From a virus: DNA of 64,000 nt. Below are positions 17,423 to 60,803 of the stretch, in pieces. The position numbers and the translations under genes were made by a program. Numbering within the stretch: the first letter of the stretch is position 1; every line of letters begins with the position of its first letter. A model generated the notes under the pieces. That model did not search any database and had not been told where the DNA came from. It was given only the letters and a program-made list of their open reading frames with translations. The DNA lies in IMG/VR virus record IMGVR_UViG_3300030116_004830, positions 1 through 64,000 of that record; one strand, 5' to 3'.

Positions 17423-17567
17423 TGAAATGTTAGAAGGACAAAAGAAATTGACGGAAACGATGGAAGAAATCCATCAAACCCTCAAATTCAGCAATCGAAT
17501 AATTATGATGGTTAATGTCGTTAATATTCTTACCATTATCGTAGTCGGTTTGGTGTTATTCCAATGA
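17412..17567 (+). CDS. Small tail-anchored membrane protein, 51 aa
   Basis: The ATG follows GGTGGA and overlaps the upstream stop. The product has an N-terminal amphipathic helix (FDEMLEGQKKLTETMEEIHQ) and a single C-terminal span (VVNILTIIVVGLVLF). It resembles small phage proteins that pair a coiled coil with a membrane anchor. No function is known. Confidence 0.5.
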   Translation: MVFDEMLEGQKKLTETMEEIHQTLKFSNRIIMMVNVVNILTIIVVGLVLFQ

Positions 17568-22023: not shown

Positions 22024-22181
22024 TGGATACAGCAGAAGTTTTCGGTTGGATATTATTTTTCGTCTTTATTAGCGTTCTTTTCTTTGCGGCTTTTGGAGGA
22101 GCATCTGTAACAGAAGATTCTGTTGAAGAATATATCCAAAATCTAATGCAAGAAGAAGCGGCTAATAAGGGTAGAAGATAA
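22023..22181 (+). CDS. Small membrane protein, 52 aa
   Basis: GGAGGTGGAATGG upstream and a one-base overlap with the exonuclease stop support translation. The product has one span (GWILFFVFISVLFFAAFGG) and an acidic tail. It is not recognised; it could be a lysis- or membrane-associated factor. Confidence 0.5.
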   Translation: MDTAEVFGWILFFVFISVLFFAAFGGASVTEDSVEEYIQNLMQEEAANKGRR

Positions 22182-22347: not shown

Positions 22348-22539
22348 ATGGTCGGTTTATTGAGCGTATTGGGAGTTAGTGGAATGATTACTTTAGTAGG
22401 ATTTGGATGGTATCTCACCATCGAAAAACAATTATCAAAAGCATTCGATATAGAAATTTTTGATGATGAAGAAGAACTCATTAATCTCTTCAAAAACGGA
22501 TTAAGAAATTCTTGTTGGGAAGAAACCGAAGATTGCTAG
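22348..22539 (+). CDS. Small membrane protein, 63 aa
   Basis: The last gene of the rightward block. An N-terminal hydrophobic span (LLSVLGVSGMITLVGFGWYL) is followed by an acidic soluble part. No ribosome site precedes the ATG and a 35-nt gap separates it from the upstream gene, so it may be leaderless or weakly expressed. It is not recognised. Confidence 0.4.
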   Translation: MVGLLSVLGVSGMITLVGFGWYLTIEKQLSKAFDIEIFDDEEELINLFKNGLRNSCWEETEDC

Positions 22540-22739: not shown

Positions 22740-22919
22740 TTAAAATTCAAAAAATGTTGATTCCAGAAAAAAGAATACTTTTTTCATCCCACTGATAATA
22801 AGCGGAAGCCATGTGCCTATCATAGATAGCACAATAACTGTTATACAAGCAAGTCCACAAGAATCTACAATTGAATGCGAAGAGGAAACAATCACTTCAC
22901 TCTCATTCACTTCTATCAC
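22740..22919 (-). CDS. Possible small membrane protein, 59 aa (GTG start)
   Basis: On the - strand a GTG overlapping the stop of the fibre gene opens a 59-residue frame with one hydrophobic span (CGLACITVIVLSMIGTWLPL) and a Phe-rich tail. There is no ribosome site, so translation would depend on coupling to the upstream fibre gene. It would be the last gene of the structural operon, a place where lysis genes can occur, but this is inference. The remaining sequence from 22646 to 22739 is AT-rich with no supported gene. Confidence 0.3.
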   Translation of the reverse strand: MIEVNESEVIVSSSHSIVDSCGLACITVIVLSMIGTWLPLIISGMKKVFFFLESTFFEF

Positions 22920-35000: not shown

Positions 35001-36713
35001 TACTAATGAGTAAATCTTGTTATGGTCTAAATCTACAGAACTAGCAAGAGTAATAATTTTCTTAGAAGTAGAGGCCACATTGTCTTGTGCGGTAAAATCT
35101 CCTGTATCTAAAGTAATAGTATTAGAAATTGATTCTGTAGCACTATCTATACAATAAACATCATCATTTGCCGATGTTGCTGAACCCAATACCGCTATTC
35201 TCGTATCTCTCAATATACCATCTATTCCCCAGTTAGTTCCTTCGGTTCCATCTAAGTCGGTAGTAAACGCATCTGCGGCCCCAGTAATAGTATCGTTAGA
35301 ACCCCCATTATCGTTCAATCTAACTGCGGTATTAGAATAACTTCGATAATTTACTGCCGCAGGATTGTCTGCCTTATACATCATATCTACTAAGGTAGCC
35401 TCCATAGTAAATGGCCCATAATCTACAATATGTGCTTCATACTCTTGGTCGGTAACAAAGGTAGAATAAGTGTAGATATGGGCTGAACCAGTCCACGATG
35501 AACTTCTAAGAATATATCTCGTAGCAGGTTCTAACCTGTCTTTTCCATTTAAGAAATAAAAGAATGGTCGAGATACATGGGTGTTAATATGATGTCTTAT
35601 ACTAGAATCTGTAGCCTGTAAACCATAAGCACAAGCAACTAATGTTTGATTATCTGAATCTATCTTAGGTAGATTAGAATCTAAAGAAGAAAAGACCGCA
35701 AACTTAGTATCTTTAGGAATATCTACACCTAATGAAGGACTAAATTCTATTCTATCTCCAAAAACATCATCCTCTAATATCTCAGTAATTTTAGCAAAAT
35801 GATGTTTATTTCCATCGTCAGAATAAACTAACACCCATAAATGGTCAATGTTTTGTTTTAAGAATACTTCATCATTAGCGTAACTATCAGGGGTAGTATT
35901 ATTGAATCCTCTAACAACAGTTAAATCATTAGAACTAATATTGGTGATAAGCATTTCTTCATTTTTAACAATAATAATATCGTTAATCGAAAGACCACTT
36001 GCACTAGTTACTGCAACAATAGTATCAGTAGCAGTTTCACTTCCACTTAATGTAGTTAAATGTGAAATAAATCGCTGTCCTGTTTGGGACAAAAAATCAA
36101 ACGTCTTCAATTGGTTTCCTGAAGTAACTGATAGATTCGATAAATGGTCACTAATGGTAGTAGAATTAGGATATACTCGATTTACTGCTGAATAAGTTTG
36201 AGTGGTAAAAGATAAACCGATTGTTCCATTACCTGTTGGTGCATTTGATAGAACTAAACTAGTGCCATCTGTTACTGAACTCACTGTAGTATTATCAGGT
36301 ATTATTCCACCAGTAGGTCCTACGGACATTCCTGCAACTATACCTGTCGTATCCCCACTACTTATCGTAGTATTTCCACTGCTTACTGTAAAGGTTGTAA
36401 CTACTTGATGTGATTGATTGATTCCTTTAGTTACATTAGCCATTGTAACATTATCTGCTTTGTGTATTTCATAACTATTAATTGATTCATCAGCAGTAAA
36501 CGCAGTAAAGTTAGCAAACGCTTCTCCCATCGTTCCTCTAGTAAGTAGAGGATTTAGAGGGGTTTTGTAAAGCGCCTTATCGAATATATTGTCTAGATAA
36601 TTAGCCGAAGAAGAAGTTGATTTTCCACTTACTACCGTTTGAGCGCTAGTGCTTTCGACATTCCCTTTACCCATAGCAAAGACACCAGTAAAATTACCCA
36701 TGCCTTTGGTCAT
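26082..36713 (-). CDS. Giant tail-hub/virion protein, 3543 aa
   Basis: This single frame covers 10.6 kb, about one sixth of the window. The N-terminal and central parts are Ser/Thr/Asn-rich and contain recurring beta domains of about 60 residues (for example FTVSSGNTTISSGDTTGIV and CDITNGSASITCDASANV). The C-terminal 400 residues resemble a baseplate-hub domain: NVPVNIEDVTSARIGSTLV, NEIIVYGNGIKSIKRNRKS, then DKFGKKTLEEV and VKAGDIVTLDFPSEG. It thus looks like a tail-tip hub fused to a very long adhesin-like region. No peptidase or glycosidase motif was recognised. It lies between LamG-like and fibre genes. Confidence 0.7.
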   Translation of the reverse strand: MTKGMGNFTGVFAMGKGNVESTSAQTVVSGKSTSSSANYLDNIFDKALYKTPLNPLLTRGTMGEAFANFTAFTADESINSYEIHKADNVTMANVTKGINQSHQVVTTFTVSSGNTTISSGDTTGIVAGMSVGPTGGIIPDNTTVSSVTDGTSLVLSNAPTGNGTIGLSFTTQTYSAVNRVYPNSTTISDHLSNLSVTSGNQLKTFDFLSQTGQRFISHLTTLSGSETATDTIVAVTSASGLSINDIIIVKNEEMLITNISSNDLTVVRGFNNTTPDSYANDEVFLKQNIDHLWVLVYSDDGNKHHFAKITEILEDDVFGDRIEFSPSLGVDIPKDTKFAVFSSLDSNLPKIDSDNQTLVACAYGLQATDSSIRHHINTHVSRPFFYFLNGKDRLEPATRYILRSSSWTGSAHIYTYSTFVTDQEYEAHIVDYGPFTMEATLVDMMYKADNPAAVNYRSYSNTAVRLNDNGGSNDTITGAADAFTTDLDGTEGTNWGIDGILRDTRIAVLGSATSANDDVYCIDSATESISNTITLDTGDFTAQDNVASTSKKIITLASSVDLDHNKIYSLVDSNNEFKDSFRMANRTTDDALYSTTTGYSRYMHYCDSPLTNTIIPNAMEMIEYESVTSTGGYVDIVFADTQKILAKKIKEGDSILINHIIESETVGKERTFPIADVEYSVPITGVDTIQANNLGNQKDMKFLLSSVIPNSSTSTGSRYDPLNDTITTNIDGTLYHFNIDKIDNKASGTNNGTTQAMGVRSWRKATDTEYVLTSVTAMTTVPSFSAKAFRRKYSFLADNLLTNIPIDSKITNYILSGNHSVADNNWNRNVRDYETLIETLNPTNDSITGAGANTRPTLNVGEIELEKASHSRNNDIHLVLKGGPVTGHRIKVEYGDKHNSFLKLQTHLKDERFLENFNRTDVTPYLDKISNVSLYGYSINSGLDGGGSAYRYDLNRSDSSTNFYARGVLSYLDYFSGTIDIERTVFKGTVESVEQVIEDGMFKLKIRGRNTVSDLLGPIVNKDFKFTEDIVYSTVGPVERMAAFGQVELTTHNHTTHGTTFTDDGTYPVGTTEIQVNQISSSTTTQGTTLTIQQGDLIYTTQGVFLGRVHKITDVDSDGDFTPAVILFEEGIPTRLKDGETLMGSFYQTPSEIFPNSQDLADTSTANIYRQYIKGNTVSLAKSLSANPFNSTRVNSLLGTKDKGIIFTGGKSLTLTDDYAPFKDGTDLVGTSSSSHPLAKGYSINSPDGVDYDYPFYCNLADEITNKYGINYVNFHTVNSLTEYDVINLSSNERETIIEMAPICPAVFARIDDNPIDSRDKYLLQVGAFTSSEINGYNGVFQIAQASWMEELKQGDYIFDENGELFGKIIDISLGSSDGILNDRVAFTLDRPLFKTITATEKIMKYYGDASPAQYFSGTGIHFSNYASATTFASTEFNAAVIKSSDATAQAFLQSLEAGMRIKIEGLVSHSMYDNLGVFSIGHVFEDDTEVILFTRKHPSGKIPASGLGSFSNDSSGQTVRITVLTDYFTQGLYFLNTQGLSQGGVLTLTNPILSSPNEADGNCKPIKWASGLFHYVTDGSVAESSAGAYQPHSTALTIMSDLIDRYGNTKWRYFGLQKGKYLSYVSRRLKDGKPKTTYSFEKGRVNGYATAYRISDAKYGKNKLMKFPYGYHNNDFAWGITRMAYDSASDTLLEPYTNDSVELTNGIRKPNFFLEYLSPESRDFRPVMGSNFADFDKHGTAIVTPDHTQYRVGIYPRYMARLHDNHRGGDWQEDLDAPENSTVPHTVLKYRKWKALASDSDDFDYDITYAGGSAASYIEPNAGSSDTITESLGSQWVKIGGQNDKNNNRTFKLSALSADVAGKFTMDTTKPPFTKIGTAGVGFVGGSAKTTTGYEEITVLHPPWIGPKFDGITRAKDHWELPDPKALRWFIFSSADMYPDSMSRKHHIGYSGVVNYDSSSETAISRSFSDYSLLLKSKSSFSNSNTPHAHYEGTLQDEEETDDNYTTIPISSASIAPSEMKRFGLMRLIDCTYDWHFNLIDPERLPSDITKMTTPNFEYSRYQALKRLPLRTTGSDANFLSAFYGDGDTIINLDNNPSALLQTGDQIFTCTGHYLGKVKRTADAVTDNTCDITNGSASITCDASANVRIGMEVRPTGTISGFPDNASVVSITTGTEGTDVTEFVISANFTGSSANNVNLTFEHHIELEGASRKIIKSDGSAGLYHGYLYVVSDGTSTLAEQDYWDSFFRFRTKGKGGKNTFTAPTEKAETHMLQQMWNASYHEAASQDTTYDLIPHTRHPVNGVLPYLFYQIPYGVVEEGSNHTSHGPNRPSNGPIGLAIHNAAYEKTDAGPDDTNIDANISEPSSDDPSPKFLRSFTRNFIQAMGPHAIIDPVSNATDPTGGDTTYAFNLPSSSQIAYNPIIALPPAFRTFYATSASKISTGLTINSMQDKRYLVNRSMTPANSGVVVNESNFSSENQFTITVDDGSGGSSDAVSKFPVNSVVYDPSNNPVGKVKAVTATQITLFSRNAVALNNNDELHYNVDNTIDTEYSHPSNVLEFIQHGGNPYAGCSVISLAGYTVEDSLPTNLPVGARTLIRNLQQGITKNFGHSRPRLSAPATSDANKSEAIYGDGAGNIDTASYFNEKSNEFNFLTTLGNWKSGFANFNSDLTQNANQFSYVGQGTGYIANGVFGVFHPELFLGGICKSTLNTTGGDIDANERQEGVFTFRSINQQSRDNVSNTNKDLGVLRILSSPSPNDSSSDRNFNHNDKNSWLNFVDLTGMYLVANFGTEEGKKTSRRNFAPFSGELTVNTYGSVLADEAYDIPAAYISPLFGTDGERSTKIRVIEEDFFLSNCAYSNSNGVVTYTGDEDIRQLLRAGMLVKGHGIASFVINSVDSASQFTLSNTPTAATQSNTLGFRGSGGGSTGLDDCMVDPDHIIYVHEHRRNATGKEVAHELLIDNIPHNKSGEVQFFNNYRVMRPAETCLWPNSPNEISIGKLSGSTTKMPQSDSMYGYVPSLTNINSSNNFTGPDEEQILSNYDGTIGDNEPPMSMYLAVDMDARHSKFKEIGTVAVNDKSSTVTSSSLFTSSVIQEGDVIRLLHGNYFVKSIESTSSLTIAGQYRGTNHSGTGYVYNNTYTVLRNYSHLFNPSGNRNTFKNGEAYNMLLTDGVNKQKISMGVNTNYYDETPLCKLSIGKIEQPLLGLVSFGEIFTIKSNVPVNIEDVTSARIGSTLVIGEEVENIVNNVLSDEGISYDISDNREYPYYISPNFQGVDLFNATNFAAKYKEKEIRVDEKGVSLIKQSNDLDFRDVTLSYENNDLKIISVTRNKSTFDLYNEIIVYGNGIKSIKRNRKSIDKFGKKTLEEVNMELVSQDDVDNRAKGLLKAHSEGDDRFTVRMSITGIEFVKAGDIVTLDFPSEGVPKDTYKVYEIRRELKGLIELEVGTYRKDLANRFAELSMLNKSNSASIRGSQFTSTTAPLDFFDSVKLKELSLVIRRIGLADTNAFTLGFQTLTSRKLDFGTTMGPQETVTEIIREEDLT

Positions 36714-39190
36714 GATTCATCCCCCTCAAATCTAAAGTAAACTAGAGTATTTCTAAAGTTAGGAACAAGAGTATCAATACTATTGAATCTATCTTTGTAT
36801 CCTCTTGTAATAGCAAATTCGTGCATTTCTCCCATGAACTGTGAACCTCTTCTAATCTCTAAACTGTCGTTACCGTTAGAGCCTAAGAAGCAATCGGTAG
36901 CGTTTAATTCAAATTCAGAAAAGTTTACTGTTGTCCTAATTGTAACATCTGTTAAAGTGCCGCTAGTATGAGGTCCACTAGCAATACTATTTATGCAATT
37001 GATAGAAAAAGTGTTATCTGTTATCACTGTAACTTTCCAAACTCCATCTAAATTAGTAACTCCTGTTCCTTCTAATTTAATCCAATCGTTTGTAGCCAAT
37101 CCATGATTATCTTGAGTAGTAACTGTAGCAGTTGCGGATGAACCTGTAATTGAAGCAAATCTAATTTTACCCTCACTAAATATTTCAGTATCTAATTCTT
37201 TACCATCTAAAAATAAACTAATACGATTAGCATTATTATCATAAGCCATAGCAAGATGAAACGGTCTTAAAACATAGGAGGCTTCTTTCCATGTATCCCC
37301 CAATAGATGTGCGCCGTATTCATCTGAATCAGCCAAACTATTACCACTACCATCTACTATCTTTAGACCATTAGTAAATCCAGTATCAGGTAATGAACAG
37401 TATAATGTTCTAGAAAACATTTCTTCTTCATTTGAGGAAATTAAATAGTTAGCATTAGTAGCCCCAGTTAAGCCGTATGAATCTAAAGAAGTAGTTACTG
37501 GGTTATTACCTCTAACTACTGTTATCTTATTTTTTTCTATACTTCTTATTTCCATAGGTTCCGAATCATTCCAAAGAACCCCGCCTATACTTAATTTACT
37601 AGCATCATCAACATGAATAATAGTTTCAGTGGTCGTTCTTATTGGTTTAGTTAGTTTACATTTAGCCATAGAAACCACATCGCTTCTATTGGAAGAACTA
37701 TTTACACCAATATTAGCAATATATCCTAGATATGTAGGTTGTTTTCCATGTTCCAAAGAAGCAGAATATACTCCCGTAGAACTAGATTGAGCATATAAAT
37801 TACATCCTTTCCAAATATGCGGAGACATATCTAGATTACCAGTATCAATACTTGTTGAATCATATTGGTAATATGCCCCTGCACCATCGTTAAATGATAA
37901 TTGATAATGTCTTGTTTGAAAATGAATCGCTACAGTATCAGTAGCGGCGGCTACAGTTTCAGCAGTGAATAGATTAACACCTGAAGTAAACGGCTCTAAT
38001 TCTATTACTGTAGTGCTAATTTTTTCTTTGACTTTGTAATGACCGTCATTCTTTGTTGAGCCAATTACTTTGATGTAATCTCCTGTGTTTAATCCTGCGG
38101 CAAAGGTAGTGTTTTGTAAAGTGATTTTATTTCCATCTGTAAGTGAACCATCATACTCTCCAAATAGAACAAATGTTACCGCACTAGATATTGTTACCGC
38201 ATTATGATAAAATCTTTCAGCGTATATCTGATTAGAACTTGTATTGATTTTCTTATGGTATCTAACTACATCTTCTATTCCAAAGTAAACAGGTCTACCA
38301 AATACCTCATCAACCGATTCTGTTTGTTCTACTGTCTTACCAAAATATTCTTCATTAGCAGTAATAACAGGAACAGCGCTTTGGACGGTAACTGTTCTAA
38401 TATGACCATGCCTATCTTTACCTTTAATTACACAACCTAACTTATATTCAGCAGGTTGATTCATTGTAGTTCTAGTCATATTCTTTAGATAGAACTGGCA
38501 TGTTTCATTATGAAATATCGTCATTTTATGATTGATACGATTATCGCCATAAACCTCAGCATCAACGGCGTGAGTAGTAGCAGTAGTTCCATTTTGCGCT
38601 CTAGCAACTACAATGGTTTTAGACGTTGATATACTTACAACTTCCATTTGTTCATTACCTATTCTAATATTGGTTCCGCCCACTATGTTGTCGATATTAG
38701 ATAATGTTAAAGTCGTAGCAGAATCATTTACTGCAACGGCTAAATAAGCAACAAGTTCATGAGAAAAGTATGCTGATGTTCTAGAACTGTTACCAGTTCC
38801 TAATTGCCCTCTAGGAGAATAAAACTTATTCAATGGTAATTCTAAAGATGCGCTATTATACTTTGTAGCAAGAGTAGGTGTTCCTCCTCCTGAGATGTAA
38901 TCAGCAATTAGACGATGACCAAATCCGTTTACGTCATAAGGAGTTATGATTCCTTCTATTGTAAACGAATCAGCCAATGACCATAGACCATATTTTGCAT
39001 CGTCATCATCAGCAGTTTCATCAATTTCAATACCCGCATTATTTTGAGCATCGCCCATTGCACTTTCAACATAAGTAACATCAGGTCCTTTAGGAATATG
39101 CTTACTATAATCTAAATGAACATAGCCATCTCCCATAATAGGAAAGACCAACGCCTTTTTATTACCAGCATATATTCTATAGTTAGACAT
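36710..39190 (-). CDS. LamG-like tail protein, 826 aa
   Basis: The ATG at 39190 is preferred to a TTG 18 nt upstream. The N-terminal part SLADSFTIEGIITPYDVNG and the C-terminal YVLRPFHLAMAYDNNANR-x-SLFLDGKELD form the two halves of a concanavalin/LamG-type lectin domain, usually carbohydrate-binding. Between them lie insert domains of the form TTLTLSNIDNIVGGTNIRIG then VVARAQNGTTATTHA, a beta module found in many phage tail proteins and also seen in the adjacent giant protein. It is likely a distal tail or adsorption protein. Confidence 0.65.
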   Translation of the reverse strand: MSNYRIYAGNKKALVFPIMGDGYVHLDYSKHIPKGPDVTYVESAMGDAQNNAGIEIDETADDDDAKYGLWSLADSFTIEGIITPYDVNGFGHRLIADYISGGGTPTLATKYNSASLELPLNKFYSPRGQLGTGNSSRTSAYFSHELVAYLAVAVNDSATTLTLSNIDNIVGGTNIRIGNEQMEVVSISTSKTIVVARAQNGTTATTHAVDAEVYGDNRINHKMTIFHNETCQFYLKNMTRTTMNQPAEYKLGCVIKGKDRHGHIRTVTVQSAVPVITANEEYFGKTVEQTESVDEVFGRPVYFGIEDVVRYHKKINTSSNQIYAERFYHNAVTISSAVTFVLFGEYDGSLTDGNKITLQNTTFAAGLNTGDYIKVIGSTKNDGHYKVKEKISTTVIELEPFTSGVNLFTAETVAAATDTVAIHFQTRHYQLSFNDGAGAYYQYDSTSIDTGNLDMSPHIWKGCNLYAQSSSTGVYSASLEHGKQPTYLGYIANIGVNSSSNRSDVVSMAKCKLTKPIRTTTETIIHVDDASKLSIGGVLWNDSEPMEIRSIEKNKITVVRGNNPVTTSLDSYGLTGATNANYLISSNEEEMFSRTLYCSLPDTGFTNGLKIVDGSGNSLADSDEYGAHLLGDTWKEASYVLRPFHLAMAYDNNANRISLFLDGKELDTEIFSEGKIRFASITGSSATATVTTQDNHGLATNDWIKLEGTGVTNLDGVWKVTVITDNTFSINCINSIASGPHTSGTLTDVTIRTTVNFSEFELNATDCFLGSNGNDSLEIRRGSQFMGEMHEFAITRGYKDRFNSIDTLVPNFRNTLVYFRFEGDES

Positions 39191-39194
39191 AATA

Positions 39195-39989
39195 TCACAA
39201 ACTTGCAAAGGCTATTTCAAACTGTAAATTAAATTCAACAAATGGTTGGCCTCCTACAAGTGTAGTATCGAAGGACCTAACGAATCCAGCAACTCCTTCT
39301 GTAATATTTACAGCAGTGTTAATCGGTTTAGGAAAACTAGAAATTGGTAAACTAAACTTAGCATCTAATTCTGATGCACCCTTATCTCTAACTCCATAAT
39401 TGAAGGGAACTAAGGGAGCATCTTCTACTGAGGTTTGAGAGCCAACAGTAATGGCTTCTCCTGAAGCGGTTTCATCATGGTAAGTCCAATTAGGACCTAC
39501 TCTAGAAGGAATTAGAATATTTAATTTGTTTAGATTCTGATTAGGTTGCATGAATGATGAATCAACATAAGAGTGTATTAGTTGGGCTACTTCTTGTGCG
39601 GTCATAAAAACAGTGCATCTCTTTCCATCAGCATCCGTGTATGTATTTGAGGAATCTGTAGGGTCTACTTCACTTTCAGGCAAATCGTTTGCAGAAAATT
39701 GTTTTGTGATATTCTGTTCAGTAATAATTCCGCTAAGTTGAATTGACTTTGTGGCCATACCCAAATCAAGTCCTAGAGAAACAGATTCACCAGTAGCGAT
39801 ACCAATAGCAGGTGTAGGAAAAGACATGATGTTTTTAGCAGTGGATATACTTACATTGTCGCATTTAAGAGCAATACGATTTGAAGAAAATGAATCCATT
39901 GTAGAGGTATCAGGAGAATCGCTAAACGAACTTCTAGAACTTAAATCAAGAAAGACGTAATGGACATTATCGGGCGACTCAGTTGGCAT
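39195..39989 (-). CDS. Distal tail protein, 264 aa
   Basis: Directly downstream of the tape-measure gene, the position of distal-tail (Dit/gp19-like) proteins. The segment FPTPAIGIATGESVSLGLDL followed by IQLSGIITE and a final QPFVEFNLQFEIAFASL is typical of beta-rich tail-tip proteins. GAGG precedes the ATG. Family identity is inferred from order and composition. Confidence 0.55.
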   Translation of the reverse strand: MPTESPDNVHYVFLDLSSRSSFSDSPDTSTMDSFSSNRIALKCDNVSISTAKNIMSFPTPAIGIATGESVSLGLDLGMATKSIQLSGIITEQNITKQFSANDLPESEVDPTDSSNTYTDADGKRCTVFMTAQEVAQLIHSYVDSSFMQPNQNLNKLNILIPSRVGPNWTYHDETASGEAITVGSQTSVEDAPLVPFNYGVRDKGASELDAKFSLPISSFPKPINTAVNITEGVAGFVRSFDTTLVGGQPFVEFNLQFEIAFASL

Positions 39990-47954: not shown

Positions 47955-48668
47955 TCACGCAAGCCACTTAGCCCAAGCCGCACCCTTTTGAATCATCTTA
48001 CCTAATCCTAATCCACTATTAGGAGGAGAGTAGGTCGCTTGACCAGTAGCAGGGTCTATCCAGTATGGATTATTGTAATTATCATAACCGCTAGGAGGAA
48101 CAGGATAACCACTTTGATTGGTCATTGCACCTTGTCCCATAGCCATGTTTTGATTCATGTTCCCCATCATTGGTTGACCTTGAATATTAGCAGGAGTATT
48201 GTTTTGCATTTGTGGTTGTCCTCCCATTGCTGGTTGTCCTCCCATTACTGGTTGCCCTCCTCCATCTCCAAAACCTTGAGCCTCTAAATACTGATTCTTT
48301 GCCATTTGTCTTTGATATACAACCTCTTGATTAATTGAAGATTGTAAAATCTGTTGAATATCTAATTGAATATTTTCTTCTGTAATTCTTTCATACTCAG
48401 CAAGACATGCCTTTTCTAGAGTAATATCTCCTTGAGTGGCTTCTAATTTAAAATGCAATTTAGTTAGCATCCTACTCATTACTCTTTCAATAACATCTTC
48501 CAATAGTTTCTCATAAGAGGTAAAGAAGGCTTCACCATGATAAAGTAAAAACTCTTCAACATGGTTATCTTGTAGAGTCAAAAGGTTATTCATAGCCTTG
48601 AAACTCTTATCGTTGTTTTGGCTCATTTGGCTCGCTAAAGCACTGTTGCTTGTTCCTAGTAATCCCAT
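47955..48668 (-). CDS. Hypothetical protein with GQPxMGG repeats, 237 aa
   Basis: The N-terminal 125 residues are helical. The C-terminal half is a low-complexity tail with GQPVMGGQPAMGGQPQM repeats and many Asn, Gln, Pro and Gly residues, ending KMIQKGAAWAKWLA, an amphipathic helix. Flexible repeats followed by a helix could tether it to the virion or membrane. It lies next to the GTPase gene cluster. No family is recognised. Confidence 0.5.
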   Translation of the reverse strand: MGLLGTSNSALASQMSQNNDKSFKAMNNLLTLQDNHVEEFLLYHGEAFFTSYEKLLEDVIERVMSRMLTKLHFKLEATQGDITLEKACLAEYERITEENIQLDIQQILQSSINQEVVYQRQMAKNQYLEAQGFGDGGGQPVMGGQPAMGGQPQMQNNTPANIQGQPMMGNMNQNMAMGQGAMTNQSGYPVPPSGYDNYNNPYWIDPATGQATYSPPNSGLGLGKMIQKGAAWAKWLA

Positions 48669-49291
48669 TATTCATCACCTATTAATTCATCAATCTGTCC
48701 CATCTTACCCTTTAGTTCCATTAGTAGTATCATTAGTTTTTCTTCAGCAGTAGTCGTATCCGCCTTCGGGGGTTGTATTTCCCATCCCTTAGAGGTTAAT
48801 GAAATTATATCCTTCTCCGTTAAAGCAGTAAGCGGCCCCCTACTTATTACATTCGGCATTCTTGCTTTGGGAATATACTTTTTGAACTCTAATCCATGTT
48901 TTTCAGCAATCAATTGTTGCTCTAACATTTCCATCTGTTTGAACATAGAAGAATGTTTAGGACAATAAGTTCCTCTTAATGGTCTACCCTTATGAACATG
49001 AGATAATGGAATAGGAGGTCTAAGTGTATCTCCTGCGTCCCACACATGATGAACTCCACAAACTACACATCTATCTTTAATGTTAAATTTATAACCGTAT
49101 TTTACCAACAATAGGCTTTTCTTTTCAGGCATTAATACCTTGGTTATCTCTTTCATTTGTTTCTTAGTATCAAGAGATTTATATTCAAAATTAATAATGG
49201 GTCCTGCGGCCCTAGCAGAGTTCTTCATTCTTAATGGGTTAATCATTGTATTATCATTACCGATTATATTCGGTGTATATATTGCCGTCAT
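48668..49291 (-). CDS. Putative zinc-binding protein, 207 aa
   Basis: A central site CVVCGVHHVWDAG, then HVHKGRPLRGTYCPKHSSM, provides four Cys plus His residues as in HNH-like or treble-clef zinc folds, but no complete HNH nuclease motif is apparent. The C-terminus is helical. GGAG precedes the ATG. Its place beside the small GTPase suggests a shared process. Confidence 0.5.
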   Translation of the reverse strand: MTAIYTPNIIGNDNTMINPLRMKNSARAAGPIINFEYKSLDTKKQMKEITKVLMPEKKSLLLVKYGYKFNIKDRCVVCGVHHVWDAGDTLRPPIPLSHVHKGRPLRGTYCPKHSSMFKQMEMLEQQLIAEKHGLEFKKYIPKARMPNVISRGPLTALTEKDIISLTSKGWEIQPPKADTTTAEEKLMILLMELKGKMGQIDELIGDE

Positions 49292-49295
49292 TTTA

Positions 49296-49973
49296 TCAAT
49301 ACTCCTTTATCATAGACATTATTCCTCGGTAAACCATTTCGGGGTCTGACTTGGCAGATACGATGTATTTGAAACATGGTATTCCCTTATCTTGTAACCG
49401 TTGCATACCGAGCCTGAACGGTTCAAAAATTGGATGTTTCTCGATAGGTCCGTTGTGTTCATATTTATCCTTCCATAAATCATACTTGTTAGCCCATATG
49501 CCTACTGCGATTGGAAAGTCCTTGTCCTTCTTTCTTTTAGTTTTACCCTTTCCTAATCTCCAAAAATCATCACAAATCGTATCTACTAAAAATTGCCAAG
49601 AGAGTTGATGTTCTAAATTATAGGCTTCTGATAAATGGCGGTCATCAATCATGAATATAAGATATTTTACCTTCCTTTTCATCATATCGTTTTTCCACGC
49701 ATCCCAGTAATATGATTGACCTCCTACATCAGCAGTTTTGATTGTCCTACTATCTTTATCTATTTTTACTGTTTTTCTAGAGGCACGATGTAAACCTTCT
49801 GTTCTATTCTGAATAACTGGAACTTCTCCTCTAGTTCTTAACTGTCGATGAAGGGTTGTTTTACCCGCCTTACTAGCACCATACACTCCAAAATTTATAG
49901 CATGAATTCTTTGGTAAAGGCTCATAGCCGCTTCTGCCGCTAAAATTGAAAAGCCTGTTAAAAGCGTAGCCAT
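49296..49973 (-). CDS. Arf/Ras-like small GTPase, 225 aa
   Basis: All five G-boxes are present: G1 GASKAGKTT (Lys38), a switch I Thr in NRTEGLH, G3 DVGGQ (82-86), G4 NKYD (162-165) and G5 SAK (206-208). DVGGQ is the Arf/SR-beta/MglA form and not the Era/Obg form. An N-terminal hydrophobic or amphipathic segment (LLTGFSILAAEAAMSL) could attach it to membrane. Such GTPases are nucleotide switches that recruit partners to membranes. Its genes lie among head-to-tail connector and membrane-protein genes, so a role in virion assembly at, or entry through, the membrane is possible. Confidence 0.85.
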   Translation of the reverse strand: MATLLTGFSILAAEAAMSLYQRIHAINFGVYGASKAGKTTLHRQLRTRGEVPVIQNRTEGLHRASRKTVKIDKDSRTIKTADVGGQSYYWDAWKNDMMKRKVKYLIFMIDDRHLSEAYNLEHQLSWQFLVDTICDDFWRLGKGKTKRKKDKDFPIAVGIWANKYDLWKDKYEHNGPIEKHPIFEPFRLGMQRLQDKGIPCFKYIVSAKSDPEMVYRGIMSMIKEY

Positions 49974-49976
49974 ACA

Positions 49977-50195
49977 TTAGTCCCACCCAATTAACTCCTT
50001 AAAACCATCAATTGCCAACCCAAGTAAATCAATACCGAATGAACCCATGATGTTACCGACCAAAAAGAAAAACACCGTAGAGCCAACGCCCCATAACCAG
50101 TATCTTACTTTTAGAAAGAAAATATCGGCAGAATGCGCTCTAGATAAATCGTATGCTAACGACTGTTCATCTACTCCTAAGAGCCTATCTAACAT
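49977..50195 (-). CDS. Small membrane protein, 72 aa
   Basis: The N-terminal 25 residues are polar; the remainder has one or two spans (VRYWLWGVGSTVFFFLVGNI and IDLLGLAIDGFKEL). It is placed directly upstream of the GTPase gene in the transcript. It might be the GTPase's membrane partner or a holin-like protein; neither can be proven here. Confidence 0.5.
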   Translation of the reverse strand: MLDRLLGVDEQSLAYDLSRAHSADIFFLKVRYWLWGVGSTVFFFLVGNIMGSFGIDLLGLAIDGFKELIGWD

Positions 50196-50207: not shown

Positions 50208-50588
50208 TCATTCTAGTGCTTGAAGGAATGTTTCAGATACCTCATCATAGGGGGATTGTGGGCCACTGTAGTAGGTTAGATTTTTACCTTTCATGGATTC
50301 TCTAATCTTCTGCTTTTGTTGCTCATCTCTTTGTTTCTTTTCCCAATACATATCTATCTTTCGATTCAATAACCACATTTCAAATCTATCATTCACTGCT
50401 AAATCAAACAGTGCTTTCTGTAGCATTATTACGCCTACAGTAATCAGTCCAAACAATATTGCATGTGTAACCGCAGTAAACGGTAATTGGCCACCATATG
50501 CAGAATAGAAATAAACATTCATTCCGCACATTGCGCCTACATACATTATCGTCATTATTAGCCTAGTATCTTTATTGATAGCCGCCAT
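50208..50588 (-). CDS. Two-span membrane protein, 126 aa (holin-like candidate)
   Basis: The start at 50588 follows GAGAGGG. Two hydrophobic spans (LIMTIMYVGAMCGMNVYFY and THAILFGLITVGVIMLQ) precede a long charged C-terminal helix (YWEKKQRDEQQKQKIRES). Size and layout resemble some holins, but the charged tail could also bind the neighbouring GTPase. It overlaps no other gene. Confidence 0.5.
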   Translation of the reverse strand: MAAINKDTRLIMTIMYVGAMCGMNVYFYSAYGGQLPFTAVTHAILFGLITVGVIMLQKALFDLAVNDRFEMWLLNRKIDMYWEKKQRDEQQKQKIRESMKGKNLTYYSGPQSPYDEVSETFLQALE

Positions 50589-51763: not shown

Positions 51764-53116
51764 TCACTTCAAGTTGGTGATTTTTCCTTGTCCCTTAAAG
51801 AAGGTGCAACCAGTTTCACCCATTGTTCTGTAAAGACCTCTGTTACCTAGGACTCCAACACCGAATGGGTTTCCATGAGAAATACCGTCCTCAAAGTATT
51901 GGGTAGGCTTCATTGTAGCAAACCATAGATGGTCAGTGTCTAGCAATAGCATGTCGGATAGACCGCTTGTTGCCGCACCTGTCTTTGGCATGTCCTTACA
52001 AGGAATTAGAGGAATATCGTAGTATGTTGCAACTCTGAATCCAACTTCTGCACCCTTTACGCCCTTTACACCGTTATGGGTTGGAATAACTTCCTTAGCG
52101 TCCATGAATCTTTCTTGGCTCTGTAGCAAGTCAGACAATGCTTGAATGGTATCGTATCCAGTTAGGATAACCTTTGGAGTTCCACCATTCAATCTTAGGT
52201 TCTGAATAACATCGTTAATGATGCTTAGAGTTAGAACACGACCCGCAGTAGCGTAAGATGCACCGTAGTTAACAACCGAATCCATGAAAGATGCGCCTGT
52301 TGCTCTTGAGGTGTTACCGTAAAGAGTTGTTACATCAGCGTCTAGGTCAGCAATAGCAGATGAAACGCTTGAAAGCCTATCAAGTTCACCACCGCTATCG
52401 GACAACTCATCGTTACTGCTAACAATCTTCAATAGAGAAGTATAGTTTTCACGAATTCTTCCGCTTGAAGTATCTGCTCCAAGTGTATCGTAGTTCTCAA
52501 GAGGCATTACTAGCATAACCGACTGAGATTCTGCGTGGAATTTACCCATATCCTCACGAATGAGTTTACGAATATCTCCAACACCATCATCAATCTTAGC
52601 CATTTCAGCCGCAAGTTCGGAGTAATCGAACATATGAGCGACAATCTTTGGGTTCATGTATAGAGTGGTGTATTCAGGAGCAAGGGCTTCCAACTGTGTG
52701 CTATCCAATGCTTCGTTTTCACCGACACCACCGAGCAAATCTCCATCAGGAGTTTCTGAACCTTGAACACCACTTCCAGTAGTTGCACCTACAGCGAATG
52801 CCGCCGCACTTCCACCTTGAGGTCTGTTAATCATAACTCTCCAGCCGCTTGAAGTGTATGGCCTCTTAGGTAGAATAGATAGTGGGTTGATTTCTTGGTT
52901 AATCATTGACCAAACTTTCTGACCGTAAACCATGTTGTAAAGTGCAGTTAGGTTTGTTGCCGCAGTTCCGTTAAGAGTTAGTGCAGTGTCGGACGAACCA
53001 GTGAATCCACTGTTGATTCCGCCAACAATACCTGCCGCCTTCAAAAGGTTGTTTCCACCTACGTTACCATAGGTTGCTCTTTCCAAATCTTGAATTGTGT
53101 TAATGTATTTCGTCAT
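51764..53116 (-). CDS. Major capsid protein (HK97-type), 450 aa
   Basis: GGAG precedes ATG 53116 by 9 nt; an earlier in-frame ATG abuts it. The order protease/scaffold then this gene, the length, and an abundant-protein codon pattern support the HK97-fold capsid protein. Segments include NPLSILPKRPYTSSGWRVMI and a central EALAPEYTTLYMNPKIVAHM; the C-terminal part YFEDGISHGNPFGVGVLGNR is compatible with the P- and A-domains. The N-terminal region may be removed by the adjacent protease. Confidence 0.8.
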   Translation of the reverse strand: MTKYINTIQDLERATYGNVGGNNLLKAAGIVGGINSGFTGSSDTALTLNGTAATNLTALYNMVYGQKVWSMINQEINPLSILPKRPYTSSGWRVMINRPQGGSAAAFAVGATTGSGVQGSETPDGDLLGGVGENEALDSTQLEALAPEYTTLYMNPKIVAHMFDYSELAAEMAKIDDGVGDIRKLIREDMGKFHAESQSVMLVMPLENYDTLGADTSSGRIRENYTSLLKIVSSNDELSDSGGELDRLSSVSSAIADLDADVTTLYGNTSRATGASFMDSVVNYGASYATAGRVLTLSIINDVIQNLRLNGGTPKVILTGYDTIQALSDLLQSQERFMDAKEVIPTHNGVKGVKGAEVGFRVATYYDIPLIPCKDMPKTGAATSGLSDMLLLDTDHLWFATMKPTQYFEDGISHGNPFGVGVLGNRGLYRTMGETGCTFFKGQGKITNLK

Positions 53117-53149
53117 TTTTTTCATCTCCTTATTGTTTCTCTAATGGGA

Positions 53150-54675: not shown

Positions 54676-57159
54676 CTAGAATTTTAATTTAGAATCCTTA
54701 TCTTCTCTAATATCCCATAGTCCGTCATCAGTTTCAGGGTCCACAGGTTTCTGTTCTATTCCAGTCCAAGCAAGCCACTTATCTTCGCCCTTTATCGGTA
54801 TAACTCTAACATGAAATTTAGTATCGAATTTATTTCCAGTTAAAATGTATTCATGATAACCATGACGCTGAACCCCTAACTCTACTTTTCCTGAATCTAT
54901 GAGTTTACCCGTTTCTATTTTCGTTACAACTTGTGCAGGGTATTTGCCTGATTTACCGAATAGAGTAAAGATGTCGTCTTCGTTTTCTATCTCTATATCC
55001 CAACCAATAGTTTCGTCTGATAATTTGAATAAGATAGAAAGATGACCGTTATCTTTGTAGTAGATTTTGAAATCACCATTACGGTATTCATCAGGGGTTT
55101 TATATTTTGATTTTAAAATGTCCTTTTCTAAAATATCAGGTTCAGCAAAAAATAATTTCTCTTCTTCATTGTAACCAATGTCTTCTAGATTCTTTAGATA
55201 ATTCTTCAATCTTGTAGGTTTACTATCAAAGATATTGTTGTAAGGGGTTTTCTGTTTCTCATTAACGAACTGTTCTATCTTAGAAAACGGAGATTCGCCA
55301 TTCTCTAAAAGATAATTTCTTATTGATACTCTAAATGCTCCCTTTTCTCTTTTAATCAGTTCTTCTATTTCTGTTTTCCAAACGTCAATATCAAGTAATG
55401 CATTCTTAGCCATTATATTATTTTCTTCAAAACCATAGAAAGTAAACCCATCTAAATCAGATTTAATGATAGCAGTAGCATCACCATGAATAGTATCGCT
55501 TATACGAAATCCTTTCTCTAATGCTTCTATATCATAATTAAGAGATTTCTTAGTATCTTGAGATAATAGGTCTAAAGTGATTAATTTTTCAGGAAGTTCA
55601 ACTTCGGGTATTTCTATTACTTTAGCCGAAAAGAGCGTGTATCCCTTTTCGTTTTTCTTTACTTCATCTATCTTTACACGAATAATACTTCCAACTTCAA
55701 CATCTATTTTTGTATTTAACGCCTTACCAACATTAAGATATTCTCTATCGTTAATTGTCTTAGTGTCCGAATAATTATCTTTATCTGTTAATGGTCCTGC
55801 CCCTAAAGTATAGGTAAACATATTTGATTTAGTGGTTTTCTTATCTAAAACCATCATATCTAAATCTACAAACTTTTTCCATTTAATCCATTTAGGGTTT
55901 TTCTTAGTTCCTATAAAGTAAGTGGAAGTTACATCTTTTATTACTACCCCTTCAGCAGTAGGAATCTCCATAATTTCTTTTGCATATTCTTCCACTTCTT
56001 TCACAGAATCAGCATAACGAGTATCCTTCTTAGAAGGGAACGCTAACTTTTCATGGGAATGTGTAGAATAATTATTGAATAGAATAGTCATTCTTTCTAT
56101 GAGTTCTTTCTCATGTAACTCCTCACTTTCATGTCGCATTATGTCGAACACATGCGCTCTTAATTCTGTATCAGATTTTTTGTCCTTAAAAATTCTAGCA
56201 ACTACCTCTGCTCGGTGTAGGGCTTCCTTACCTTTGAATAATAGAAGTTCAGCATCGAGGATACAATCTCCAAAATGCTTGGCTTTCATCACCTTAACTT
56301 GTTCAGGACATTTCTTGGTAATGTCCTTACCGTTGAAAGAAAATATCTTGATTTGATTATCTATCTTATGAATTTGAATTCTCATTCCATCATACTTTTC
56401 TTGGACTACCCATTTACCAGTAAATCCTCTTAACTGTTCTAAGTCATCAATATCGAATATACGATACATCGGTTTGTTAGGAACCAAGAAATGTTCTTCC
56501 GCCTTCATCGCCTTTTCTAGGCTAACCGTCTTATCCCAATTTTTACGGCTATGATGGTTCACAAATATTTCTTCTAACAATTTCTTAGCGCCTAAATATT
56601 TACCTTTGATTCTTTTTGTGTCTTTATCGTCACCATAATGTTCGACCACAAAATCTAGAATATCCTTTTCAGCAAGGTTTAGTCCCTTGAATCCCTCTGT
56701 AATACTATCGGGTTCCAAATCATTCTTTTCCCATGCCTCATCACTAAGGGCTTTATCGTGGTTTCTCATAGCCCAGTGAATAAATTTAGCAAATAGAGAT
56801 TCGTTTTCTATTAGTTCATCTAATACATCTTCACCATATTTAGTAGAGAATGGGTCCTTTACAATACCCGATGAATATCTCAATTCTTTAACTTGAGAAT
56901 ATATTTTTCTAGCATCATCACTTTCTACGTTTTCTGCCTCATCAGAGAACAGTTCCTTTTCATTAATTATTTCTTTAATCTCTTTACTGAACTCATCAAT
57001 GTCGTCCCATTGTTCTCTAAGTGTTTTAATTTCGCCTATCCATTTATCGCCGTATCTTTTCTTATCTGATAAAGCAGACAAGTAAGACATTCTCATTTTT
57101 TCAAAGAATTGAATTACTCTAAGGGTTAGAGGGTCATCTTTGATAACGGAAACAGGCAC
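54676..57159 (-). CDS. Large ATP-dependent DNA ligase in head module, 827 aa
   Basis: The nucleotidyltransferase core is complete: motif I EKYDGMR with Lys255, motif III DAELLLF, motif IV EGVVIKD, motif V WIKWKK, followed by an OB-fold (GSIIRVKIDEVKK). It has about 240 residues before the core and about 260 unassigned residues after it. The N-terminal KDDPLTLRVIQFF resembles RNDPFTILK in the prohead protease and NDPFIMLK at 59287. A GTG start follows GGTGAT. Its place between small head genes and the protease suggests that it acts on packaged or injected DNA and not in replication. Confidence 0.85.
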   Translation of the reverse strand: MPVSVIKDDPLTLRVIQFFEKMRMSYLSALSDKKRYGDKWIGEIKTLREQWDDIDEFSKEIKEIINEKELFSDEAENVESDDARKIYSQVKELRYSSGIVKDPFSTKYGEDVLDELIENESLFAKFIHWAMRNHDKALSDEAWEKNDLEPDSITEGFKGLNLAEKDILDFVVEHYGDDKDTKRIKGKYLGAKKLLEEIFVNHHSRKNWDKTVSLEKAMKAEEHFLVPNKPMYRIFDIDDLEQLRGFTGKWVVQEKYDGMRIQIHKIDNQIKIFSFNGKDITKKCPEQVKVMKAKHFGDCILDAELLLFKGKEALHRAEVVARIFKDKKSDTELRAHVFDIMRHESEELHEKELIERMTILFNNYSTHSHEKLAFPSKKDTRYADSVKEVEEYAKEIMEIPTAEGVVIKDVTSTYFIGTKKNPKWIKWKKFVDLDMMVLDKKTTKSNMFTYTLGAGPLTDKDNYSDTKTINDREYLNVGKALNTKIDVEVGSIIRVKIDEVKKNEKGYTLFSAKVIEIPEVELPEKLITLDLLSQDTKKSLNYDIEALEKGFRISDTIHGDATAIIKSDLDGFTFYGFEENNIMAKNALLDIDVWKTEIEELIKREKGAFRVSIRNYLLENGESPFSKIEQFVNEKQKTPYNNIFDSKPTRLKNYLKNLEDIGYNEEEKLFFAEPDILEKDILKSKYKTPDEYRNGDFKIYYKDNGHLSILFKLSDETIGWDIEIENEDDIFTLFGKSGKYPAQVVTKIETGKLIDSGKVELGVQRHGYHEYILTGNKFDTKFHVRVIPIKGEDKWLAWTGIEQKPVDPETDDGLWDIREDKDSKLKF

Positions 57160-57169
57160 ACAGAATCAC

Positions 57170-57355
57170 CTACTTCTTTTTGTTAGCCCCTGCGTAATGC
57201 CTTTTACCAGCCTTTACGCTTTGGCCTTTAGCCTCATCAGAAAGATGACCTACTCCCAAGGGCTTAGTTTTATCCTTTTCACCTTTGGTTCTCTTGAGTT
57301 TCATTTCTTCGCCAATGACGAATTTCATTAGTTTTTCAGTGTATTCAGTGGTCAT
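57170..57355 (-). CDS. Small basic protein, 61 aa
   Basis: GGAGGG precedes the ATG, which overlaps the upstream stop. The product is Lys/Gly-rich (KLKRTKGEKDKTKPLGVGHL and a KAGKRHYAGANKKK ending), compatible with a DNA-binding internal head protein. It is not recognised. Confidence 0.5.
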   Translation of the reverse strand: MTTEYTEKLMKFVIGEEMKLKRTKGEKDKTKPLGVGHLSDEAKGQSVKAGKRHYAGANKKK

Positions 57356-57732
57356 TTTGGTCCCTCCTTTATTGCTATTGCTTCAATTCCGTCAAAACTT
57401 GTATTTCTAATAGTCCAGCCTTCAGCACGATATATATCGGAAATTATTTGAAGAATGTATGACCTATTCCGACCGAGTTTATCTTGCCCGTCTTGTCCCA
57501 TAAGATAAAATGGAGAATTGTTATTGGACAATCCCGTTTTATCTGCTGGTTCATTTCTAAAACCAATATATGTTTCTTTTCCTTCTAGCGCTGGTTGCGC
57601 TTGAACCAACGCTACTAATTTAGGTTCAATTACTGATTTCTCATACTCAGTAATCGCTTGTTTATGGTCTTCATCTCTAGCGGTCCTAGTGCCTAGGGGC
57701 ATAGGCATTTTCAAAATATCTTTCCAATTCAT
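57352..57732 (-). CDS. Trp-motif head-region protein, 126 aa
   Basis: The protein starts MNWKDILKM, one of five proteins in this block opening with M-[NST]-W-[KE]-D-[IVM]-[LI]. The rest contains GFRNEPADKTGLSNNNSPFY and a C-terminal alpha/beta part (SYILQIISDIYRAEGWTIRN). GGAGAG precedes the ATG. Body function is unknown; see the finding on the shared motif. Confidence 0.55.
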   Translation of the reverse strand: MNWKDILKMPMPLGTRTARDEDHKQAITEYEKSVIEPKLVALVQAQPALEGKETYIGFRNEPADKTGLSNNNSPFYLMGQDGQDKLGRNRSYILQIISDIYRAEGWTIRNTSFDGIEAIAIKEGPK

Positions 57733-57733
57733 T

Positions 57734-57970
57734 TTACTCTCCTCCTAATCTTGCTACTAAGTCATTAATTTCATCCCAACTCATCTTAGCAATTGTATCT
57801 GAATCAGGAACATCACTATGAGTTCTGATTGCAGGAGTTGGCGAGTCCACAGTAACAATACCCGACTTAACTAAGATATTATCATTGTTATAAACTGTAT
57901 TTTCTATTTTCTTAATTCTACCTACTAATTCCTTTAGCAGGTCTACCATTTCATTATTCTCTTCCGTCAT
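57734..57970 (-). CDS. Head-region protein with C-terminal Trp motif, 78 aa
   Basis: An N-terminal coiled coil (MVDLLKELVGRIKKIENTVY) and a linker precede a C-terminus TIAKMSWDEINDLVARLGGE. The last 18 residues closely match the C-terminus of the prohead protease/scaffold (EIAKMDWSDINALVERLEG). This suggests a shared docking site, perhaps on capsid protein or scaffold. Its stop and start overlap its neighbours. Confidence 0.6.
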   Translation of the reverse strand: MTEENNEMVDLLKELVGRIKKIENTVYNNDNILVKSGIVTVDSPTPAIRTHSDVPDSDTIAKMSWDEINDLVARLGGE

Positions 57971-58311
57971 TATTCATCATCCCTTAAACTTCTAGCGCTC
58001 TTTGGATATACTACTTTTCTTACTTGGCGATACAACTGTTCGTATTGCTTACGAAGTTTGCTGGCAGTAGCGACCATATCAACATTCTGTTCACTGATGG
58101 ACTTTACTTTCTTTTGTAGTTTAGAGTCATCCTTCACCAAATCTAGTTCACTCATCATATCAATGAGTTCTCCTAACTTGGTAAAATCCTGACCAAAATA
58201 CTCTGTAGGTTCAGCCGCTTGGAGTGTCTTTTTGAGTTTCTTTTTCTTCTTAGAATCAAGAGCATTGAGGATTTTGCTTTCCTCTTTGATTAGCATATCT
58301 TCCCAAGTCAT
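57970..58311 (-). CDS. Trp-motif head-region protein, 113 aa
   Basis: Starts MTWEDMLIKEE, then a Lys-rich helix (LDSKKKKKLKKTLQAAEP) and a C-terminal coiled coil rich in Arg and Lys. The basic helical body suits DNA binding inside the head, but this is inference. It is one of the family sharing the N-terminal Trp motif. Confidence 0.55.
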   Translation of the reverse strand: MTWEDMLIKEESKILNALDSKKKKKLKKTLQAAEPTEYFGQDFTKLGELIDMMSELDLVKDDSKLQKKVKSISEQNVDMVATASKLRKQYEQLYRQVRKVVYPKSARSLRDDE

Positions 58312-58312
58312 A

Positions 58313-58963
58313 TTAATCCCTATATCCTAATGACCTTGCATTTGCGGCAAATCTATGACCCGCCATTTCTCCTCTAAACTCCCTTTGTTCTTCTTCGGAC
58401 ATATCGCCCCAATCTTCTTCATATTGAGCATATTCCTTGAAGGCCTTCAAAATAGCCTGAACAAAATCTCTTACGCCCTGTCTACTATTATCCCATCCTT
58501 TGAGGTCAATCTTAACATCAATTTTCTTTTTGCCTCCTTGGGTAGCCAACTCAATATCATGTATCTTGAAACTATTAATAGCGAGTCGACCATAATCAGG
58601 ATTTCTTGGATTATAGTATAAATCATAATTATCGGGCAAATACCTGATAGTCATTTTATCTGAACCAAAACCTTGACGATAAGCATAAGGTTCATCCATA
58701 TCGGTAATAATTAATTCGTGGCCAAAGGTTTCTTGTCCATAAGAGCCGTCATAATCTTCCATTTCTTCATCAGACAAAGTAGTAAATTCTCGATATTTCA
58801 TTTTCTTCTTATCTTTTTCAGTCATCCAAGACATATTCTCATAGTGGTCGCTATATTTAATCTCAAAACCTAATGCCTCTAAACTACTAATTACTTGGTC
58901 GCCAAATTCACTAATCTTCATATTGCTTAAATTGTCGTATTTCAAAATATCTTTCCAACTCAT
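58313..58963 (-). CDS. Trp-motif head-region protein, 216 aa
   Basis: The start at 58963 follows GAGGTG by 6 nt, giving MSWKDILKYDN; the longer frame lacks a ribosome site. The body is an alpha/beta domain (FGHELIITDMDEPYAYRQGF, KKIDVKIDLKGWDNSRQG) ending in a Glu/Arg-rich helix. It is not recognised. Confidence 0.55.
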   Translation of the reverse strand: MSWKDILKYDNLSNMKISEFGDQVISSLEALGFEIKYSDHYENMSWMTEKDKKKMKYREFTTLSDEEMEDYDGSYGQETFGHELIITDMDEPYAYRQGFGSDKMTIRYLPDNYDLYYNPRNPDYGRLAINSFKIHDIELATQGGKKKIDVKIDLKGWDNSRQGVRDFVQAILKAFKEYAQYEEDWGDMSEEEQREFRGEMAGHRFAANARSLGYRD

Positions 58964-58964
58964 T

Positions 58965-59285
58965 TTAAGCACCTCTATATCTATAATCATAACTGTAATT
59001 ATCCGACTCTTTATCTGATTGAACTCTTCTTAAATTCTTTTTAGATAAGAAAAACCATGAAGATGCATTCATATTTCCATCCATATTTCCTTCATCTATC
59101 CCTAATGGTTTAGCAATTTCTCTTGCTATTTTCCAACTTGTTCTAGGTAAAACAAAATCTACTTTCTCTTCAGGATATTGTTCCCGATACTTTTCAGAAA
59201 CAACTTTCACACCATTTTTTGATTTTTTCCATGCTTCACGAATAGCATCATAATCGTTACTTTTTAGTATATCTTCCCAAGTCAT
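58965..59285 (-). CDS. Trp-motif head-region protein, 106 aa
   Basis: Starts MTWEDILKSNDYDAIREAW after GGAG. The middle is basic, and the C-terminus is Tyr/Arg/Asp-rich (SDKESDNYSYDYRYRGA). No domain is recognised. Its start region is nearly identical at DNA level to that of the 58313-58963 gene, suggesting duplication of a short leader. Confidence 0.55.
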   Translation of the reverse strand: MTWEDILKSNDYDAIREAWKKSKNGVKVVSEKYREQYPEEKVDFVLPRTSWKIAREIAKPLGIDEGNMDGNMNASSWFFLSKKNLRRVQSDKESDNYSYDYRYRGA

Positions 59286-60602: not shown

Positions 60603-60803
60603 TCACCTATTTGCTATTTTTTCCATCATATCTATTAATTCGCCTTCTAATTCAGGGGCAGAATAATGTCTTTCTAACAATTTATTCATAGCCATCATTT
60701 TCAATTTCTCATATTTAGGTAAATGCATCAATTCAGAATCTAATTCACCAACATAATCAAATTTCTCTTTCTTTATTACATCTTCCCAATTCATATCATC
60801 CAA
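60603..60803 (-). CDS. Trp-motif head-region protein, about 63-66 aa
   Basis: Two starts are possible; the one at 60794 gives MNWEDVIKKEKFDYVGEL, in register with the family motif, and an ATG nine bases earlier is closer to GGAGAG. The body is a single helical region. It overlaps the portal gene and is the first of the Trp-motif genes in transcription order. Confidence 0.55.
   Translation of the reverse strand: MDDMNWEDVIKKEKFDYVGELDSELMHLPKYEKLKMMAMNKLLERHYSAPELEGELIDMMEKIANR

Follow-up and report, generated by a model that had tools for sequence, protein, structure and literature searches.

The 64,000-nucleotide stretch of viral DNA analysed here (the window; positions 1 to 64,000 of IMG/VR record IMGVR_UViG_3300030116_004830) encodes an Arf-like small GTPase which, judged from sequence comparisons, is a core gene of magroviruses and not a stray acquisition. 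Our best explanation, tentative and a little short of an even chance, is that the gene provides a virus-encoded Arf-like switch that would act at the host cytoplasmic membrane late in infection, within a cassette of five genes. The cassette and the major capsid protein (MCP) gene of the window are as follows:

47955..48668, minus strand: 237-aa protein with a Gln/Gly/Met-rich middle; probable 202-aa homologue in clade 2
48668..49291, minus strand: putative zinc protein of 207 aa, with a homologue in clade 2; its CxxC and CxxH pairs are invariant
49296..49973, minus strand: Arf-like small GTPase, 225 aa; ATG start; hydrophobic helix predicted at residues 2-23, G domain at 26-225
49977..50195, minus strand: small membrane protein, 72 aa; one predicted transmembrane segment (TM); conserved RAHSAD motif
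50208..50588, minus strand: 126-aa membrane protein; one or two TMs predicted, followed by a hydrophilic tail of helical type
51764..53125, minus strand: MCP (PF17236, phrog_24667), with homologues in Druskaviridae

By gene content and published description, the window belongs to a magrovirus, an Aoguangviridae-like tailed dsDNA virus of Poseidoniales. Its late module has MCP, portal, S78 protease and tail-tube matches on the same strand as the GTPase gene, which bears out an earlier reading of the sequence alone that had placed the GTPase inside a tailed-virus structural module. The window also encodes a split PolB, an RFC-like ATPase, a ligase and a chaperonin, and is organised in two opposed gene blocks. 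By inspection, an HMG-CoA-lyase-like gene lies outside the window at position 75450 of the 87,650-bp contig. The gene set of the contig agrees with the description of Aoguangviridae (PMC10768690). Note that the chaperonin (909-2432, plus strand) is of the bacterial GroEL type (E 4e-122), not a thermosome, in an archaeal virus; GroEL-type chaperonins were previously reported for MGII viruses (PMC5332604).

Scanning IMG/VR with the window's GTPase as the sole query returned 197 related stretches, the best 80 of the 197 being 63-96% identical. A distant homologue (E 7e-36), found on a contig in a GTDB metagenome-assembled genome (MAG), gave entry to a second, large clade, whose GTPases are ~30% identical to the window protein and whose contigs reach 115 kb. 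With the two-clade GTPase profile, two peptide patterns alone yielded 523 relatives. No match at E <=10 was obtained by tblastn of the GTPase against 50,697 phage records. When contigs were chosen by their MCP gene, independently of the GTPase, the GTPase and all other four cassette genes were present in 45/45 clade-1 contigs with enough room. Co-occurrence with the two membrane proteins had been proposed as a check; both were retained with the GTPase in all of these contigs, as was the zinc protein. Likewise, 18/18 MCP-selected clade-2 records with enough upstream sequence carried the GTPase. MCP and GTPase distances were correlated (Mantel r 0.76, p 0.001), consistent with vertical inheritance, and within clade 1 the GTPase and the MCP are conserved to a similar degree.

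The ORF at 49296-49973 is a real gene, with its neighbours packed tightly on both sides. Its dN/dS against near relatives was 0.05-0.12, and it is under strong purifying selection. The G-boxes, described from the sequence alone as intact, including G3, NKxD and SAK, were invariant in an alignment of 65 distinct clade-1 sequences: G1 (G32xxxxGKT39), switch-I T58, G3 (D82xGG85), G4 (N162KxD165) and G5 (S206AK208). Judged from these invariant motifs, the gene product is an intact GTP-binding-type protein. In clade 2, G1, G3 and G4 were invariant, and G5 reads MATR in place of SAK. Residue 86, the position of the catalytic Gln, is Q in the window protein and E in 48/68 clade-1 sequences; in clade 2 (n=71) it is Q in 51, E in 18, H in 1 and D in 1. 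The DxGG motif and a Trp at D+11 of G3, together a signature of Arf/G-alpha type, were invariant across both clades, as were the family-specific residues W90, W93, D96, R100, D110 and R112.

Profile searches placed the GTPase close to known families and below their thresholds. Pfam gave Arf (PF00025) at E 1.3e-4 and 21.9 bits, just under the 22.3-bit cut-off, and sub-threshold matches to MMR_HSR1, G-alpha and SRPRB; PF00025 matched 5/21 members of the GTPase family at E <= 0.01. The NCBIfam small_GTP match was below cut-off, and searches of Pfam, NCBIfam, PHROGs and PADLOC together returned sub-threshold GTPase matches or none. Against the sequences of solved structures, weak matches to Arf-like, Rab and Ras proteins were obtained. 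Because the sequence matches are weak or below curated cut-offs, we assign no named family and regard the protein, on these matches, as a divergent member of the Ras superfamily.

An AlphaFold2 model built from 55 sequences of both clades, which replaced a poor 35-sequence model (pLDDT 63.6), reached a pLDDT of 74.5 and a pTM of 0.76. It comprises an N-terminal helix (residues 2-23) and a Ras-type alpha/beta G domain, with residues 35-54 at pLDDT <50. The best structural matches were ARL1 (Z 15.3) and ARF1 (Z 15.2; 158 residues, 2.6 A), followed by Rag/Gtr (Z up to 15.0), Asgard ArfR1 (14.4) and G-alpha (14.2). All 1000 chains compared had a Z of at least 8, small GTPases occupying the top rows, and Foldseek ranked Rab proteins first. 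As these structural matches are partly tied, the fold alone does not fix the subfamily. No MglA was among the structural matches listed, which does not exclude MglA. Thus, of the original label "Arf/MglA-like", the Arf-like part holds for fold, motifs and best structural matches (Arf/Arl), and neither MglA nor SR-beta was singled out. The hydrophobic segment noted at the N-terminus corresponds to the predicted helix 2-23, whose amphipathicity was not significant. The protein begins MATLL and has no myristoylatable Gly2. A further feature of the Arf family is an interswitch toggle between GDP and GTP states (PMC12554972). Since the defining features of Arf are only partly present, we call the protein Arf-like, with a predicted small-GTPase fold, and not an Arf.

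The viral GTPase shares with Arf/Arl and Asgard ArfR proteins the Ras-type fold, a DxGGQ/E G3, the Trp at D+11 and a helix before the G domain. It differs from Arf/Arl in the missing Gly2, the sub-cut-off PF00025 score, the Glu in place of the catalytic Gln in most clade-1 sequences and its location in a viral operon. By motif or sub-threshold sequence match it falls in the same DxGG-type branch as G-alpha, Rag/Gtr and SR-beta. However, the 225-aa protein has neither the helical-domain insert of G-alpha nor the C-terminal domain of Rag proteins, and its scores are below the curated cut-offs. Among viral predicted structures, the top 50 listed matches all came from giant eukaryotic viruses, which likewise encode small GTPases (Ras/Rab-like). 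In contrast to these nucleocytovirus GTPases, which are single host-like genes, the magrovirus GTPase gene belongs to the core set of a tailed archaeal virus and lies in a syntenic cassette. To our knowledge, Arf-like switches have otherwise been described in cells and in giant viruses. The literature searched makes no reference to a magrovirus GTPase; an earlier passing annotation may exist elsewhere (e.g. Philosof 2017, Prabhu 2025). We found no precedent for a syntenic core GTPase module in tailed prokaryotic viruses.

The surroundings of the GTPase gene agree with the initial description of two membrane-protein genes (49977 and 50208) preceding it and a zinc-binding protein following: TMs are predicted in both membrane proteins, and the CxxC and CxxH pairs of the zinc protein are invariant. 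One TM was predicted in 58/59 relatives of the 72-aa protein; for the 126-aa protein, two were predicted in 42/61 relatives and one in 19/61. The 126-aa gene probably starts at 50588, a start preferred over that of a 149-aa ORF (to 50657) because the longer ORF overlaps the previous gene. Amphipathicity at the C-termini of the 237-aa and 72-aa proteins was not significant or weak. In clade-1 loci that extend far enough, the gene order is kept as MCP - 124 - 131 - 110 - membrane(126) - membrane(72) - GTPase - zinc(207) - 237 - (432) - 372 - 195. The order in clade 2 is membrane(215) - membrane(90) - GTPase - 65-aa gene - zinc(327) - 202. Profile-profile comparison (hhalign) between the clades gave 100% for the GTPase, 94% (E 9.5e-8) for the zinc protein and a weaker 71% (E 3.7e-5) for the 237/202-aa protein. 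It detected no homology between the membrane proteins of the two clades, which are linked by gene order and predicted membrane segments only. The cassette follows the MCP gene in clade 1, whereas the clade-2 cassette precedes both the portal gene and the MCP gene, the latter by ~20 kb. Having been relocated yet kept together, it moves as a unit, and this cohesion is the strongest sign that the cassette forms a functional unit.

From gene order alone, we infer that the cassette proteins may interact. In the mechanism we propose, the two membrane proteins would form a platform on which the GTPase docks in a nucleotide-dependent manner, via its hydrophobic N-terminal helix and/or by direct contact. 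The GTP-bound form would recruit the zinc protein and the Gln/Gly/Met-rich protein, and hydrolysis, with Q or E at position 86, would reset the GTPase. Such a cycle would organise a step at the archaeal membrane late in infection, most likely the assembly of virions there or their exit across it. That the GTPase is a late membrane-associated GTP switch acting with its cassette we consider about evenly balanced; a role of the cassette specifically in assembly or exit is rather doubtful.

Other ORFs bear on the question of exit. Four very small ORFs with one TM each are candidate lysis/exit proteins:

17403-17567, plus strand: very small one-TM ORF
22017-22181, plus strand: very small one-TM ORF
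22348-22539, plus strand: very small one-TM ORF
22740-22919, minus strand: very small one-TM ORF

Three of the four sit at the convergent ends of two gene blocks. The idea that the cassette is the sole source of small membrane proteins was rejected on account of these ORFs. Since they exist, exit is not assignable to the GTPase cassette by elimination, and egress is one option among several.

A recurrent N-terminal tag was observed on the window's contig (L501), where unrelated late ORFs begin M-x-W-[EK]-[DE]-[IVL]-[LI]-K or close variants:

57352-57732, minus strand: tagged ORF in the window
57970-58311, minus strand: tagged ORF in the window
58313-58990, minus strand: tagged ORF in the window
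58965-59285, minus strand: tagged ORF in the window
60603-60803, minus strand: tagged ORF in the window
65879-68417: tag on the same contig, outside the window
73876: tag on the same contig, outside the window

Strict matches numbered 4 in the window, compared with 0.015 expected from shuffles. Throughout the clade-1 loci (232,039 residues), all 24 occurrences of the strict tag fell among the first 15 residues of separate ORFs; 25/27 tagged ORFs lay directly beside the GTPase gene, in loci that span only ~6 kb on each side. Insertions of variable tagged ORFs (MWKDILK, MWFDILK) separate the 72-aa gene from the GTPase gene, or the GTPase gene from the zinc gene. Examples of tagged ORFs beside the GTPase are L059:5154-5989 and L059:6657-7232, with more in L051, L069, L078 and others. 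A related tag, xPFDxAWxLLK, was found in clade 2 on 128 ORFs, every one of them located upstream of the GTPase, by a looser and therefore less specific pattern (132 matches beyond the first 25 residues). Arrays of unrelated ORFs starting MNPFDQAWxLLK (L092:850-6259, L113, L150) lie directly upstream of the clade-2 cassette, and one ORF with this start has an HD-hydrolase match. In the genome that holds the tagged arrays, the MCP (SGSELLKADSP) and the protease have similar LLK-A strings near their N-termini. The tag is reminiscent of the capsid-targeting sequence of T4 internal proteins, and by this analogy it could mark proteins for packaging, as a T4-style signal for capsid targeting or cleavage.

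These tagged genes bear on an alternative role in entry, in which the cassette products would be packaged as virion components and, when the genome is delivered, would serve to cross or remodel the host membrane. The position of the cassette on the late strand is compatible with this, as are the tagged, possibly packaged genes, which adjoin the GTPase in clade 1 and, in clade 2, lie immediately upstream of the cassette. However, the GTPase and its partners are themselves without the tag, and we regard a role in entry as unlikely.

Still less probable is that the GTPase mimics or titrates a host small GTPase and thereby disturbs a regulatory or defence pathway at the membrane. The GTPase is a divergent Arf-like protein encoded by archaeal viruses, core in magroviruses and missing from Druskavirid-like relatives, and could act in this way. 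Against this, the cassette is fixed on the late strand with the capsid genes over two deep clades, the GTPase is, within clade 1, conserved to about the level of the MCP, unlike typical fast-changing counter-defence genes, and PADLOC gave no match.

We give equally little weight to the idea that the GTPase is soluble and acts, in a GTP-dependent way, in the assembly or timing of heads or cargo, the membrane genes being unrelated neighbours. Its appeal is that the GTPase adjoins capsid genes in clade 1, precedes portal genes in clade 2 and is found beside tagged genes. Yet both flanking membrane genes were kept in 45/45 contigs, and in clade 2, too, the GTPase is accompanied by two membrane genes arranged in the same order. 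Moreover, homologous capsids assemble without a GTPase in Druskaviridae. These viruses (HCTV-1, HVTV-1) have a homologous MCP; their gp117 is homologous to the 372-aa gene product, and gp121 is a tube-like homologue. In HCTV-1 a single-TM protein, gp116, is encoded between MCP and gp117. Druskaviridae differ from magroviruses in having no GTPase by profile and no homologue of the zinc or Gln/Gly/Met-rich protein by BLASTP. The GTPase profile had no match in HCTV-1, vir519 or vir335, and the gene was absent from five Druskavirid-like records of ~100 kb. Its absence from relatives with homologous capsid genes argues against an intrinsic requirement in head-tail assembly.

A scan of GTDB genomes for the GTPase gave two matches, both in one 'Maricaulis' MAG (genome G001; loci L085, L086, L087-L089). 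This MAG contains several magrovirus-like contigs, an apparent binning contamination; three contigs carry the GTPase gene, and the one inspected in detail carries the viral cassette. Thus, a host contaminant, named at the outset as the finding that would speak against a viral gene, is not what these matches look like: they appear to be magrovirus contigs in a bacterial MAG. That the gene is a contaminant, a pseudogene or a chance ORF, as the two 'Maricaulis' matches might have suggested, can be practically dismissed in view of hundreds of viral contigs, purifying selection and conserved synteny, the MAG contigs being consistent with misbinned viral contigs.

Magroviruses infect an archaeal group that ranks among the most abundant in surface ocean waters. 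For the question of how tailed viruses cross and leave archaeal membranes, the GTPase/membrane cassette is a concrete and testable candidate, and the magrovirus GTPases extend the Arf-like switches, as a deep branch, beyond eukaryotes and Asgard archaea. According to a 2015 review, holin genes had not been identified in any isolated archaeal virus (PMC4456609). The boldest form of the membrane-switch explanation, a dedicated GTP-switched machine of GTPase, receptor pair and effectors for virion exit or membrane-bound assembly in archaea, is, in our estimate, somewhat unlikely. If true, it would represent a new class of viral membrane system, with a Ras-superfamily switch core to tailed prokaryotic viruses.

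Two further late proteins of the window were observed. An 827-aa protein (54676-57159, minus strand) with an ATP-dependent DNA ligase domain is encoded between the portal and protease genes; its clade-2 homologue has 1747 aa, and the replicative ligase is encoded separately at 4428-5963. An 832-aa protein (36710-39208, minus strand) has a near-threshold E1_FCCH-domain match at residues 694-754.
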